DNA from: Haloarcula sp. H-GB4
GTDB taxonomy: Archaea > Halobacteriota > Halobacteria > Halobacteriales > Haloarculaceae
Assembly: GCF_030848575.1 (NCBI RefSeq)
Contig: NZ_JAVDDX010000002.1
Location: forward strand, 1,116,001 to 1,180,000
Direction: 5' to 3'
Length of the DNA: 64,000 bases
The position numbers were made by a program, and so were the translations under genes. The stretch's first letter is position 1. The number at the start of each line of letters is the position of its first letter. A model generated the notes under the pieces. The model was not told where the DNA came from. It ran no database searches and was given only the letters and a program-made list of their open reading frames with translations. Shown here in pieces: positions 5,327 to 52,313 of the stretch.

Positions 5327-5776
5327 ATGGCACAGACGCCGGAGGGACGGCCGACAGTCCGTATCGACGGGGCTGACCCGCTATTGGTTCCATGGGACGT
5401 GGCACCCGAACAGCTCCCGTTCGATGTCGTCCGCGGGCCGGTCGCGTTCGAGTGTGCCTCCGGCGACCGGATTGAACGAAAGTACACCGGCATCAAGGTG
5501 TTCGATCTGCTGGAGGCGGCGTCGATGCCCGGCGATACGACCCACGTCCAGTTCGAATCGGCAAACGGCGACCTGGCGTGTATCCCGCTTGCCGACCTCA
5601 ACGGCGCGGTCCTCGCGCTGGGCGACGGACCCGGGACTGAGCCGGGGCGACCGCGGTTCGTCTCGCCCCACGTGCTCGGCCCGCGAACCGTGAAGAACAT
5701 CTGCCGACTGCGGCCGCGGACGCTCGCCGCCGGCGCTGATCGTGAAGCCTACGAGCGGCTCCCGCTGGACGGCTGA
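5327..5776 (+). CDS. Single-domain molybdopterin-binding oxidoreductase-like protein
   Basis: A 149-residue protein resembling the catalytic domain of the sulfite oxidase family. The order of elements fits: a VPWD segment, F-E-C-A-S-G with Cys43 at the place of the molybdenum ligand, YTGIKVFDLL, a PLADL strand, and RFVSPHVLGPRTVKNI near the end, the family's usual motif. It is shorter than YedY-type enzymes and has no signal peptide, so cofactor binding is uncertain. ATG 5327 is chosen because upstream codons lack the family pattern. Confidence 0.55.
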   Translation: MAQTPEGRPTVRIDGADPLLVPWDVAPEQLPFDVVRGPVAFECASGDRIERKYTGIKVFDLLEAASMPGDTTHVQFESANGDLACIPLADLNGAVLALGDGPGTEPGRPRFVSPHVLGPRTVKNICRLRPRTLAAGADREAYERLPLDG

Positions 5777-5790
5777 CGCTGGACAGCGGG

Positions 5791-5991
5791 CTATTCCAGC
5801 AGGCCGATATCCTTTGCCAGACGGTCGGCGAGTTCTTCCAGTACGTCGGGGTCGACCTCGGCGACCGGGTCGCCGTCGTGAAGTTGCTCGTTGTGGCGCG
5901 CGACGGCGTCCTCGACGTCCTCGAACGCGACCGATGTCCGTGTCCCACAGGCCTCACACACGACCGGAATTTCGGGCTGGTCGGTTGTCAT
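5791..5991 (-). CDS. Small CxxC protein, conserved haloarchaeal type
   Basis: A 66-residue acidic protein with one Cys-x2-Cys knuckle near the N-terminus (VVCEACGTRT) followed by an acidic helical region (DPDVLEELADRLAKDIG). The start at 5991 (MTTDQPE) is preferred over the longer reading, whose extra residues are basic and unlike haloarchaeal protein. It converges with the oxidoreductase-like gene. No function can be assigned; a zinc or redox knuckle is likely. Confidence 0.65.
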   Translation of the reverse strand: MTTDQPEIPVVCEACGTRTSVAFEDVEDAVARHNEQLHDGDPVAEVDPDVLEELADRLAKDIGLLE

Positions 5992-6055
5992 TGGCGGCAG
6001 TTTCGTTCGCTCCCCGATAAACGGACCGGAGCGTTCGCCAGACACGCACCCGTAC

Positions 6056-6562
6056 TCACTCTAGAACGCTTTTCGGCCGTTTAAGATAGAACGCCTGCTC
6101 AGTGACGCGTTCGTACACCGCATACAGCGTCTCGACTGCGGCCGGGTCGGGGTCGAACTGCAGATGCGGGGCCATGTGGTACGCCTTGCAACTGGTCAGG
6201 AAGAAGTACAGCGTCCGGTGGTGGCCCGGCGTCGCGTCGATGACGCCCATCGATTGCTCGCCCAGATCGCCGGAAAAGTCGTTGAGCAGGGCCGCGATGT
6301 CGTCGTTCAGCTGCTCGTCCGGGCGGGTGAGCGGCGCACCGAGGGCCTGCTGGAGGAACTCGCTCGTCGCCCGCAGGAAGGGGTTCGAATCCATACCCGT
6401 CGGGTCCACGGCGCTGAACGCATCGTACAGGTCAAGCAGCGCAGTCAGTTCGTCGTCAGTCAACGCGATGGGTTTGACGGGGTCACCCTGCGGGAGCGAG
6501 TAGTCCGGGAAGGAGTGCGACTGCGGGTCCGGTACCTGCCCGAACACGGTATCGAGACTCAT
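6056..6562 (-). CDS. Conserved hypothetical protein (168 aa)
   Basis: An acidic, soluble, mostly helical protein with no signal peptide or membrane segment. I do not recognise a domain. Notable features are a Phe-Pro-rich N-terminus, a central D-A-T-P-G-H-H-R-T stretch, and one cysteine near Lys-Ala-Tyr-His-Met. Amino-acid composition and codon use match haloarchaeal coding sequence, and the opposite strand gives only basic, arginine-rich translations. It is oriented like the HAD gene behind it, about 95 bases away. Confidence 0.65.
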   Translation of the reverse strand: MSLDTVFGQVPDPQSHSFPDYSLPQGDPVKPIALTDDELTALLDLYDAFSAVDPTGMDSNPFLRATSEFLQQALGAPLTRPDEQLNDDIAALLNDFSGDLGEQSMGVIDATPGHHRTLYFFLTSCKAYHMAPHLQFDPDPAAVETLYAVYERVTEQAFYLKRPKSVLE

Positions 6563-48758: not shown

Positions 48759-50147
48759 TCAGTCCGAGGCTTCTTCGGCGTCGACCGGCTCCGTCTCATC
48801 GGTTTCGAGGCGGACGACGCGAGCTTTCATGATGCGCGTGTTCTCGACCTGTTCGACGCGGATTTCGACGCCGTCGTAGGTGATGGTCTCGCCCTCCTCG
48901 ACCAGTCGGCCCGCCCGGTTGAATATGAAGCCGGCGATGGTTTCGAACTCCTCGCCTTCGGGCAGATCCAGGTCCAGCGCTTCGTTGACCTCCTCGATGT
49001 TGACCTCGCCTTTGACCGTGACCGTGTCGTCGTCGACGTACTCGATGGGCTCTTCCTCTTCGCCTTCGAGTATCTCGCCGACGATCTCCTCTGTCAGGTC
49101 CTCCATCGTCACCAGCCCCTCGGTGGTCCCGAACTCGTCGATGACGATGACCATGTGGAGGCGCTCGGCCCGCATCTCGGTCAGGAGGTCGTCGACGTTC
49201 TTTGACTCGGGGACGTGTAGAGTTGGCTCGATGAGGTCCTCAAGCTCCATATCGCGGGCCAGCGCCTCGCCGTAGTTGAGGTCCCGAACGAGGTCGCGGA
49301 TGTGGATGACGCCGATAACGTTGTCCAGACTTCCTTCATAAACGGGGATGCGGGCGTGGCCGCTCTGGATACACGTCTCAAGGGCCTCCTCGACGGATGA
49401 CTCCTTGGCGACGGCGGTCATGTCCAGCCGCGGCGTCATCACTTCCTTGGCGATGGTGTCGTTGAACCGGAGTGTGCGCTGAAGCATCTCCCGTTCGTCC
49501 TCGTCAAGGACGCCCTCGCGCTCACCTGTCTCGATAATGTCCTGGATCTCTTCGCGGGTGACATAGGAGGTCTCGATGGCGGAACGGCCGCCGGTGATCT
49601 TGTTGACGACGCGAGTGAGGTAATCAAACAGCAGAATAAGCGGGAGCAACACCCTCTCGGCGGCCTTGAGCGGCTTGGAAATGCGCAGCGCCCACGACTC
49701 GGTGTTCTCCACCGCGTAGCTCTTTGGCGCGCTCTCACCGAACAGGAGCACGATGGCGGTGACCCCGAACGTCGCGATGGCGACAGCCAGCCCCTGGCTC
49801 TCAACATACATCGCAAGGAGTCCAGTAGCGATGGACGACATCGCGATGTTGACGAGGTTGTTGCCGACGAGAATCGTCACAAGCAGACGGTGGGGGTCTG
49901 ATTTGAGTTGTTTGAGCGTCTTCGAACCCGGAACGGCGTCCTCGACGAGCGCTTCCGTCCGGTGTGCAGGCAGCGAGAACATCGCAATTTCTGAGGACGA
50001 GAAGAACGCTGAGAGGACAACCAGTGCGACGAGCGTGACAATACCAGCGACGAGCACCGCATCTTTTGGTATTGGGACGCCGACGATTTCGACGCCCTGC
50101 AGCATCGCTGTAGACAGCTCAAACGGCGCAGGTGGATCCAGGGCCAT
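48759..50147 (-). CDS. CNNM/CorC-type membrane protein with CBS pair
   Basis: A 462-residue protein with a membrane DUF21 domain (about residues 15-185), where FFSSSEIAMFSLP and NNLVNIAMSSIA are the family's conserved segments, then a CBS pair (motif V-M-T-P-R and V-I-D-E-F-G-T-T-E-G-L-V-T), and a CorC-HlyC domain at the end. Members are linked to Mg2+ or Co2+ export. The start at 50147 (MALDPPAPF) is more natural than 50189. It lies divergent from the glutaredoxin-like gene. Confidence 0.9.
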   Translation of the reverse strand: MALDPPAPFELSTAMLQGVEIVGVPIPKDAVLVAGIVTLVALVVLSAFFSSSEIAMFSLPAHRTEALVEDAVPGSKTLKQLKSDPHRLLVTILVGNNLVNIAMSSIATGLLAMYVESQGLAVAIATFGVTAIVLLFGESAPKSYAVENTESWALRISKPLKAAERVLLPLILLFDYLTRVVNKITGGRSAIETSYVTREEIQDIIETGEREGVLDEDEREMLQRTLRFNDTIAKEVMTPRLDMTAVAKESSVEEALETCIQSGHARIPVYEGSLDNVIGVIHIRDLVRDLNYGEALARDMELEDLIEPTLHVPESKNVDDLLTEMRAERLHMVIVIDEFGTTEGLVTMEDLTEEIVGEILEGEEEEPIEYVDDDTVTVKGEVNIEEVNEALDLDLPEGEEFETIAGFIFNRAGRLVEEGETITYDGVEIRVEQVENTRIMKARVVRLETDETEPVDAEEASD

Positions 50148-50245
50148 CAACGGTCGAAATTGTAATGGGCGGGGATTAAGGCTTGTCATGGAGGGGTTGC
50201 CAGCGAAGCCCTTACACGGCTTTCACGCGTATCGCCGTATAGAGT

Positions 50246-50524
50246 ATGAGCGAGTCCGACATCACGCTGTACCGGTTGCAGGCGTGTCCCTTCTGCGAGC
50301 GCGTCGTTCGGAAGCTGAACGAGTACGGTCTCGATTACCAGTCACGGTTCGTCGAGCCGATGCACGCCGACCGCGACGTGGTCAAGCGACTGTCCGGCAA
50401 GCGAACCGTCCCGGCCATCGTCGACGAGAACACCGGCGTCACGATGTCCGAGAGCGCGAACATCGTCGCGTATCTGGAGCGGACATACGGCGAAGGCGAG
50501 GAGACCGCTGGGGGTGTAGCCTGA
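50246..50524 (+). CDS. Glutaredoxin/GST N-terminal-like thiol protein
   Basis: A 92-residue thioredoxin-fold protein. The redox site is C-P-F-C (14-17), followed by T-V-P-A-I-V as the cis-Pro region and E-S-A-N-I-V-A-Y-L, as in GST N-terminal domains. Haloarchaea use gamma-glutamylcysteine rather than glutathione, so its thiol partner is unclear. The stop overlaps the next gene's start (TGATG), coupling it to the peroxiredoxin-like protein. Confidence 0.86.
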   Translation: MSESDITLYRLQACPFCERVVRKLNEYGLDYQSRFVEPMHADRDVVKRLSGKRTVPAIVDENTGVTMSESANIVAYLERTYGEGEETAGGVA

Positions 50525-51033
50525 TGGACCTCGACTTCGATATCGTCGATCTCGATCCGGTCGATCACCCCGAAGAAGGCGACACTGCGCCGGATTTCAC
50601 ACGCCCGCTCGTCAACGACGAGTTCTGGGAAGACGAATCGCTCGCGTCGGTGTGTGCCGACAGTGACCGGGTCGTGCTCGTGTTCCACGCGATGGATGGG
50701 GCGTTCCCGGCGACGTACATCTGGAACGAGATCCGCGACCGCGCGTGGCACGAGCAGGCCACCGTCATTGGCGTCTCTATCTCAACGCCGTACGAGCACA
50801 AGCAGTTGCTCGAAGAGCGAGAGATCGAGGGAGACTACCGGCTGTTCTCGGACCCGGCTAACGGCGTCGCAGAAAAGTATAACATCGACATGGCCCTCGA
50901 CGGAATGACTGGAATCGAGGAACCACGCCCGTCGGTGTTCGTCCTTGATAGCGACCGGACCATCGAGTACGCGTGGGTGGCCCAGGAATGGCCCGACTTC
51001 CCGGACTACGACGACGTCGAGGCCCAGCTCTAA
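50524..51033 (+). CDS. Peroxiredoxin-fold protein without the peroxidatic cysteine
   Basis: A 169-residue AhpC/TSA-fold protein. The beginning G-D-T-A-P-D-F and V-L-V-F-H-A-M-D match the family, but the position of the catalytic cysteine (D-x4-C) is Ala63 in D-G-A-F-P-A. The only cysteine in the whole protein is Cys44, far from the active site. It is coupled to the glutaredoxin-like gene. It may be a chaperone-like or regulatory relative and not a peroxidase. Confidence 0.8.
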   Translation: MDLDFDIVDLDPVDHPEEGDTAPDFTRPLVNDEFWEDESLASVCADSDRVVLVFHAMDGAFPATYIWNEIRDRAWHEQATVIGVSISTPYEHKQLLEEREIEGDYRLFSDPANGVAEKYNIDMALDGMTGIEEPRPSVFVLDSDRTIEYAWVAQEWPDFPDYDDVEAQL

Positions 51034-51035
51034 CG

Positions 51036-51620
51036 ATGGCGACAGTTGACGACGCCGCGGTAGTGGTTCGCGACGGAGAGCTGGTCGTGTATCCGACGGA
51101 GACAGTGTACGGTCTCGGCGCGGACGCGCTCGACGCTGCTGCCGTCGAACGGGTGTTCGACGCGAAGGGCCGCGAGCGTGACAAGCCAGTGTCGATGGCC
51201 GTCCCCGACATCGAGTCCGCACGCGAGTATACGCGGCTGAGCGAGCGTGAGCGGGCGTTCATGCGGGAATTTCTCCCCGGTCCGGTCACTGTCGTCGTGG
51301 AGCGCCGCGACGTAGTCCCGGACGTGCTGGTCGCTGGCCGTGACCGTGTCGGTGTCCGCATCCCCGACCACGACCTCGCGCTCGAACTGCTCGCCGAGAC
51401 CGGGCCGCTCACGGCCACGAGCGCTAACATCTCCGGGAACCCGAGCGCCCGTTCCGTCGACGACCTCGACGCTATCCGTGAGCGTGCTGCCGTCGTCCTT
51501 GACGCCGGTGAGACCGACGGTGGGACCGGGTCGACGGTCGTGAACGTCGACAGCGAGACGATTCATCGCCGCGGCGCACGCGCCGACGCCGTCGAGTCGT
51601 GGCTCGAAGACCGGGACTGA
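51036..51620 (+). CDS. sua5: Threonylcarbamoyl-AMP synthase (Sua5/YrdC family)
   Basis: A 194-residue YrdC-domain enzyme making threonylcarbamoyl-AMP for the t6A modification of tRNA. Diagnostic parts are PTETVYGLGADA, K-P-V-S-M-A-V, and T-A-T-S-A-N-I-S-G-N-P-S. It lacks the C-terminal Sua5 extension, so it is the short YrdC form. It starts 2 bases after the peroxiredoxin-like gene, in the same operon. Confidence 0.93.
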   Translation: MATVDDAAVVVRDGELVVYPTETVYGLGADALDAAAVERVFDAKGRERDKPVSMAVPDIESAREYTRLSERERAFMREFLPGPVTVVVERRDVVPDVLVAGRDRVGVRIPDHDLALELLAETGPLTATSANISGNPSARSVDDLDAIRERAAVVLDAGETDGGTGSTVVNVDSETIHRRGARADAVESWLEDRD

Positions 51621-51650: not shown

Positions 51651-52313
51651 TTAGCGTAGCATTGACCGTAGCGACCGCGTTTTCACCCCGCAGTCGTCGC
51701 TGAACTCACAGGGCTTGCACTTGGCGTCGTTTCGCACCCGCCCCGGCGGCCCGTCGATGCTGTCGGCGGTTCTGACCGCGCGACGGTAGGTCCCTGCTCG
51801 CCGCGCGTTCACCTCGATTCGCCGGATGTCGCCGTAGGCCGGGTACTCGGCGTAGGCGATGTCGACGTCACGCTCGCGCTCCCAGGAGAGTGCCTTCGCG
51901 GCGGCGACCAGCCGCACGGTCTGGGGCTCCCAGACACCGTTCTCTGGCGGCCGACCGGCGAACACGAGCGACGGCGCGGGGCCGTCCTGCCCGGCGACGA
52001 TCTTGTGTGCGATCCCGCGGGCGTCCTTGCCTTCGAGATACGCGTCGGTCCCAGCAGGGGCGACCAGCGCGTCCCAGTCAGCCAGCCGCTCTCGAAGCCC
52101 TCTGAGTCGATCACGGTACTCGTCCGGCCCCACTTCGATGGGGGCTGCCAGCAGGGCGGCGTCGTCGGTCAGCAGCCGCTCGTACTCCCGTGCGAGTCGG
52201 CGAACCGACTCGATTTCGTCGGGAATCTCGCTTGCGCCATCGCGGCGGCGATAATAGAGCTTCCGCGGACAGTAGGCGGCCGTTTCCAGTTCCCTGAACG
52301 TGTGGGTTGACAT
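51651..52313 (-). CDS. Stand-alone Cas4-like iron-sulfur protein, atypical nuclease core
   Basis: A 220-residue protein with the Cas4/DUF83 cysteine pattern: one N-terminal Cys (A-Y-C-P-R-K, Cys15) and a C-terminal trio C-K-P-C-x5-C (199, 202, 208) that would hold a 4Fe-4S cluster. The RecB core is atypical. The usual E-x-K strand appears to read S-L-V-F-A-G, and the QxxxY-like helix is Q-T-V-R-L. No Cas genes or array lie near. Possible roles are DNA repair or nucleic-acid binding. Confidence 0.72.
   Translation of the reverse strand: MSTHTFRELETAAYCPRKLYYRRRDGASEIPDEIESVRRLAREYERLLTDDAALLAAPIEVGPDEYRDRLRGLRERLADWDALVAPAGTDAYLEGKDARGIAHKIVAGQDGPAPSLVFAGRPPENGVWEPQTVRLVAAAKALSWERERDVDIAYAEYPAYGDIRRIEVNARRAGTYRRAVRTADSIDGPPGRVRNDAKCKPCEFSDDCGVKTRSLRSMLR

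Follow-up and report, generated by a model that had tools for sequence, protein, structure and literature searches.

Peroxiredoxins (Prx) are textbook thiol enzymes, and both glutaredoxin (Grx)-dependent Prx and Prx5-Grx hybrid proteins occur in bacteria. Archaeal members of the fold include the Bcp/PrxQ proteins Sulfolobus Bcp4 (3hjp), S. tokodaii PrxQ (4g2e) and an Aeropyrum protein (2cx3). The low-molecular-weight thiol of haloarchaea is gamma-glutamylcysteine (PMC7278568). In Haloferax volcanii, HVO_0251 carries a glutaredoxin annotation, and in cells exposed to hypochlorite the thiol-based regulator OxsR binds its 5' region (PMC9426492, Table 1, a paper silent on the neighbouring Prx-like gene), and HVO_0253 is an essential Sua5/YrdC protein (PMC3017900). 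From the order of the tags and the Haloferax locus L114, HVO_0251-0253 appears to be the operon analysed here, with HVO_0252 as the Prx-fold protein termed PrxPsi; the OxsR target HVO_0251 is thus a presumed orthologue of the Grx described below, assigned by tag order. Literature searches returned no paper on PrxPsi or HVO_0252, and nothing relevant on Cys-less or inactive peroxiredoxins.

The Grx-PrxPsi-Sua5 locus

The window, the whole 64,000-nucleotide stretch of DNA analysed, belongs to a Haloarcula-like genome (G000) of 4.19 Mb and 99.99% completeness, whose nearest named relatives as judged by PrxPsi are Haloarcula japonica and H. sebkhae (95% identity). Between positions 50246 and 51620 it carries, in series and all in the same direction, the genes for a Grx, PrxPsi and Sua5/TsaC. 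The trio is flanked by a divergent CorC/CBS-like gene (48759-50189) and by the gene of a YCPRKLYY protein, PD-(D/E)XK or Cas4-like (51651-52313); both flanking genes are also present in genomes without the Grx-PrxPsi pair. The first gene of the trio (50246..50524, plus strand) encodes a glutaredoxin/GST_N-type dithiol protein of 92 aa, which matches the Pfam families GST_N_3 and Glutaredoxin and contains a CPFC motif at residues 14-17, with Cys14 and Cys17 invariant across the aligned loci, and a cis-Pro in TVP56. The CPF/YC motif, the cis-Pro and the Grx profile are those of a dithiol glutaredoxin, and the protein looks like a working thiol reductase with predicted thiol-disulfide oxidoreductase activity. 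The PrxPsi gene (50524..51033, plus strand, 169 aa) starts with an ATG at 50524 that overlaps the Grx stop codon (50522-50524) by one base, and the resulting TGATG (50522..50526, plus strand) couples the two genes. Such an overlap of stop and start codons recurs at 59 of 80 homologous loci, which bears out the coupling of a CPFC protein to a Prx-fold gene proposed in the earlier note.

A peroxiredoxin fold without its catalytic site

PrxPsi is the name given here to the family of Prx-fold proteins without the cysteine site that the window protein represents. The latter scores 59.2 bits against the AhpC-TSA Pfam profile (cut-off 26), and its AlphaFold2 model, built from an alignment of 54 homologues, has a pLDDT of 92.6 and a pTM of 0.89. 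The best solved structural neighbour is Sulfolobus Bcp4 3hjp (Z 21.8, rmsd 1.7 over 149 residues) and many other Prx give a Z of ~21, placing PrxPsi within the peroxiredoxin fold and the AhpC-TSA superfamily. With the archaeal Bcp/PrxQ proteins PrxPsi shares, besides the fold and ~25% identity, the active-site Arg and a C-terminal YxWV...P.YD motif. In contrast to these proteins, it has neither the peroxidatic Cys nor the other two residues, Thr and Pro, of the PxxxTxxC motif and displays the sequence MDGAFPATYxW instead. Ala63 aligns with the peroxidatic Cys of Cys-bearing Bcp paralogues, encoded in this genome and in other haloarchaea: PrxPsi reads FHAMDGAFPA where the paralogues read FFPGAFTxxC, and the Thr and Pro positions are likewise occupied by alanines (A60 and A56). 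The replacement of the peroxidatic Cys by Ala63, read earlier from this one sequence, is therefore upheld and extends to the whole motif. Among ~130 homologues picked to span the Halobacteriales, position 63 is occupied by Ala in 101, Gly in 12, Thr in 11, Ser in five and Cys in one, so the suggested conservation check leaves a cysteine only in a distant homologue, and position 56 by Pro in 87, Thr in 26, Ala in 11 and Ser in six. The peroxidatic Cys within PxxxT/SxxC that defines a catalytic peroxiredoxin is thus absent from the window protein and, with that single exception, from position 63 of the 130 homologues. The exception (L165/L188; G094:C1:919039-919527) reads MIGSFVCQYVW at this site and possibly represents the regain of a thiol.

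Cysteines elsewhere in the protein show no compensating conservation. Cys44, singled out in the earlier note, is a Cys in only 14 of 81 homologues and was rejected as a functional thiol, and 91 of 131 PrxPsi members contain no Cys anywhere. Since the catalytic Cys is lost and most members are Cys-free, the family does not depend on thiol peroxidase chemistry; similarly, the Cys-free members and the unconserved Cys44 indicate that it does not depend on a mixed disulfide with Grx, contrary to the mixed disulfides that had been envisaged within the pair. The arrangement of a Grx-dependent Prx, in which Grx reduces the catalytic Cys, is therefore not found. Judged from these residues, PrxPsi is almost certainly not a thiol peroxidase. 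A peroxidase acting through a Cys elsewhere in the chain or borrowed from Grx would have general precedents in the bacterial Grx-dependent Prx and Prx5-Grx hybrids and could draw on the Cys63 of L165, but it is extremely unlikely in a family so largely free of cysteine.

The site that lost its catalytic residues retains others. The replacement loop, residues 57-67 (MDGAFPATYIW; 50692..50724, plus strand), holds the invariant M57, G59 and F61 and the nearly invariant Y65 and W67 across 54 homologues, MDGAFPAT having been used as a search pattern for homologues. In the same 54-row alignment H92, Y90, W151, P157, F159, P160 and Y162 are invariant, and Arg135 (50926..50928, plus strand), the counterpart of the conserved Prx active-site Arg, is present in 128 of 130 homologues. 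As judged from the aligned sequences, the former active-site loop is conserved and not eroded. In Haloarcula and its relatives PrxPsi displays a dN/dS of 0.06-0.22, like Sua5, and this low ratio, together with the kept loop, argues that the protein is under selection and not decaying. The PrxPsi of Halorussus species and of genus g47 (L070, L091, L144 and L148) contains insertions, which lie beyond the helix following the former active site.

The conserved pocket bears on two other readings of the family. Firstly, the old peroxide pocket might accommodate a small molecule (a thiol, for example gamma-glutamylcysteine, or a metabolite derived from an oxidant), PrxPsi then acting as a non-covalent sensor or non-thiol enzyme with Grx as its output or partner. 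The retention of Arg135 in spite of the loss of Cys, Thr and Pro, and the invariant residues listed above, point in this direction, but the peroxide-site Thr60 and Pro56 are gone; this reading is considered unlikely. Secondly, some peroxiredoxins have a cysteine-independent chaperone role, and PrxPsi might be a stress chaperone or holdase; within the same stress response, Grx would independently repair proteins that have become oxidised or gamma-glutamylcysteinylated. A fold kept without its catalytic residues, the apparent binding of OxsR to the operon in hypochlorite and a reported archaeal 1-Cys Prx chaperone in the reference list of PMC7278568 are consistent with such a role, which is nevertheless doubtful: the strictly conserved pocket loop and aromatic residues suggest a specific site and not generic holding, and neither the strict pairing with Grx nor the fusion to it, both described below, would be expected.

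Linkage of Grx and PrxPsi across the order

Each of the 80 named loci of GTDB genomes has a Grx match immediately upstream of PrxPsi and in the same orientation. In 78 of these haloarchaeal loci the distance between the Grx stop and the first aligned codon of PrxPsi is -4 to +8 nt, the two exceptions being a fusion (L110) and a Grx fragment (L118). The pairing is also kept in a more divergent set of 49 loci. The spacing and the low dN/dS of PrxPsi together argue that the arrangement is not due to chance. The survey covered 293 genomes of the order, with thresholds of E < 1e-30 for PrxPsi and E <= 1e-36 for the cognate Grx. Among the 255 complete genomes, 249 have both genes, six have neither and none has a single one (Fisher p ~3e-12, phylogeny ignored). 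PrxPsi is missing only from G036, G100, G101, G155, G174 and G197, and the cognate Grx from the same six and from G011. The latter, a candidate for PrxPsi without Grx, was rejected and is counted as having both genes, as its PrxPsi is directly adjoined by a Grx whose N-terminus is disrupted or diverged (L202).

The losses are distributed over five genera (g38, g49, g51, g67 and g71), of which g38, g49 and g71 have sampled members that retain the pair. Inspection of five of the loss loci (G036, G101, G155, G174 and G197) showed the pair to be absent between the CorC-like gene and Sua5, and the region otherwise resembles that of the window, with the divergent CorC/CBS-like gene, Sua5 and then a YCPR(K/A) protein. 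Loss as a mark of anaerobic life was rejected, five of the six loss genomes having COX1. Conversely, the complete genomes G012 and G039 keep the pair with no COX1 match, so that its presence does not just track aerobic respiration. The comparison of gene order across haloarchaea advised in the earlier note thus gives a pairing that is order-wide and far tighter than could be known from one sequence. Combined with the lost catalytic site, it favours the note's view of a functional pair not engaged in peroxide removal, and the Grx-PrxPsi pair is very likely functional.

Sua5 is associated with the pair more loosely. The window gene (51036..51620, plus strand, 194 aa) encodes an L-threonylcarbamoyladenylate synthase, identified as a Sua5/TsaC threonylcarbamoyl-AMP synthase by its scores against Sua5_yciO_yrdC/PF01300 (178.5 bits, cut-off 25) and TIGR00057 (173 bits, cut-off 123), and is the sole match to the family profile in the genome. 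In 66 of the 75 loci where it was found, Sua5 lies downstream at a distance of no more than 200 nt, and this gene order, retained in most haloarchaea, could suggest that Grx, PrxPsi and Sua5 form one functional unit, for instance in redox control of t6A tRNA modification. Such a unit is, however, very unlikely, with Sua5 retained in all six loss genomes (and in place in the five inspected), 0.9-1.6 kb away in seven loci, and distant in G094 and G237, where the pair is intact. Being kept without the pair and sometimes located elsewhere, Sua5 is weak as a third functional member; it is a housekeeping gene and essential, and probably a bystander of the operon. The single operon of three genes suggested earlier stands in that Sua5 directly follows PrxPsi, its linkage being looser than that between Grx and PrxPsi. 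G094 is also the genome of the Cys63-bearing homologue.

Fusions, a second Cys-site-less family and wider relatives

Two natural single-frame Grx-PrxPsi fusions were found, one in G002 (L201; the same contig, from a MAG, is L110, with the fusion at 5710-6513) and one in G189 (L211), where it accompanies a normal pair (L212) as an additional copy. Like the bacterial Grx-dependent Prx and Prx5-Grx hybrids, the haloarchaeal proteins are thus paired and sometimes fused; they differ from the hybrids in the reversed order of the domains (Grx first), the absence of a catalytic Cys and the Prx subfamily involved. A third candidate (L118, 5911-6486; MAG QS_4_69_31), a Grx fragment that lacks CPFC and runs in frame into PrxPsi, was not counted and is probably an assembly artefact or a product of decay. 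The AlphaFold2 model of a natural fusion has a pTM of 0.70, a disordered linker and no confident docking of the domains, the unpaired alignment rows making this a weak test.

A second Prx family without the active-site Cys, PrxPsi2, occurs in 59 of 293 genomes and displays the motif GFxFSAIAxNWWKRF; a conserved Cys is present at another position, in LLCDGE (loci L221-L240). In 17 of 20 loci it is arranged head-to-head (divergently) with a second, CPYC Grx. PrxPsi1, the family of the window, and PrxPsi2 each form a well-supported clade (100/99) and fall with the Cys-bearing protein L241 in one group (97/85); as L241 shares their polytomy, one and two losses of the Cys are indistinguishable. The Grx partners of the two families are distinct groups, the second Grx not being recovered as one clade. 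A TGA inside the PrxPsi2 matches of G007 and G079 was rejected as selenocysteine, the alignment extending upstream of the start.

Across 295 genomes of the phylum, strong PrxPsi matches are confined to the order, and most matches outside it, in ten genomes examined, carry the cysteine (e.g. PGAFTGVC). Unrelated-looking Cys-less AhpC/TSA-like proteins are present in other families of the phylum (L263, L268 and L272; FIGGFDRDAVRNL, FLGGFDLHSMRSL), so that absence of the Cys from a member of the superfamily is not peculiar to haloarchaea. The genome of the window also encodes another AhpC/TSA protein without the peroxidatic Cys (L006, G000:C1:1107681-1108046; FVPGDDPESRTVLNAL). It is the strict pairing with Grx that sets the haloarchaeal PrxPsi apart.

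The favoured explanation, a tentative one, is that PrxPsi may be a Prx-derived pseudoenzyme acting as the obligate non-catalytic partner, an adaptor or regulatory subunit, of its cognate CP[FY]C Grx. The two proteins would associate in a complex, the remodelled former active site (MDGAFPATYxW) no longer performing thiol chemistry and instead docking Grx, a client or a ligand, and PrxPsi would steer the thiol-disulfide exchange of Grx, with gamma-glutamylcysteine probably as the electron source. The binding of OxsR at the HVO_0251 promoter region under hypochlorite suggests that the operon probably takes part in the thiol-stress response. Order-wide conservation, loss of PxxxTxxC with the fold and Arg kept, the stop/start overlap, co-occurrence, joint loss and fusions are established here, and the adaptor role is argued for by the co-occurrence, the joint losses, the invariably upstream Grx, the fusions, the second family, the fold, the dN/dS and the cited OxsR binding. 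Against it, adjacency alone could yield joint loss, L165 has Cys63 and the fusion model shows no confident docking. With greater reserve, haloarchaea could be seen as having evolved a class of thiol reductases made of two proteins, a dead Prx being the obligate subunit that gives a Grx its substrate or thiol specificity. The class would have arisen as, or duplicated into, at least two cognate Grx-PrxPsi systems, co-oriented and head-to-head, with occasional fusion into a single protein.

The locus would provide a clean case of a pseudoenzyme as redox partner, an order-wide, thiol-less Prx under purifying selection and tied to one Grx by gene order, loss and fusions. As Haloferax is genetically tractable and the operon is apparently bound by a thiol-stress regulator, Grx specificity in archaea that use gamma-glutamylcysteine is directly testable.
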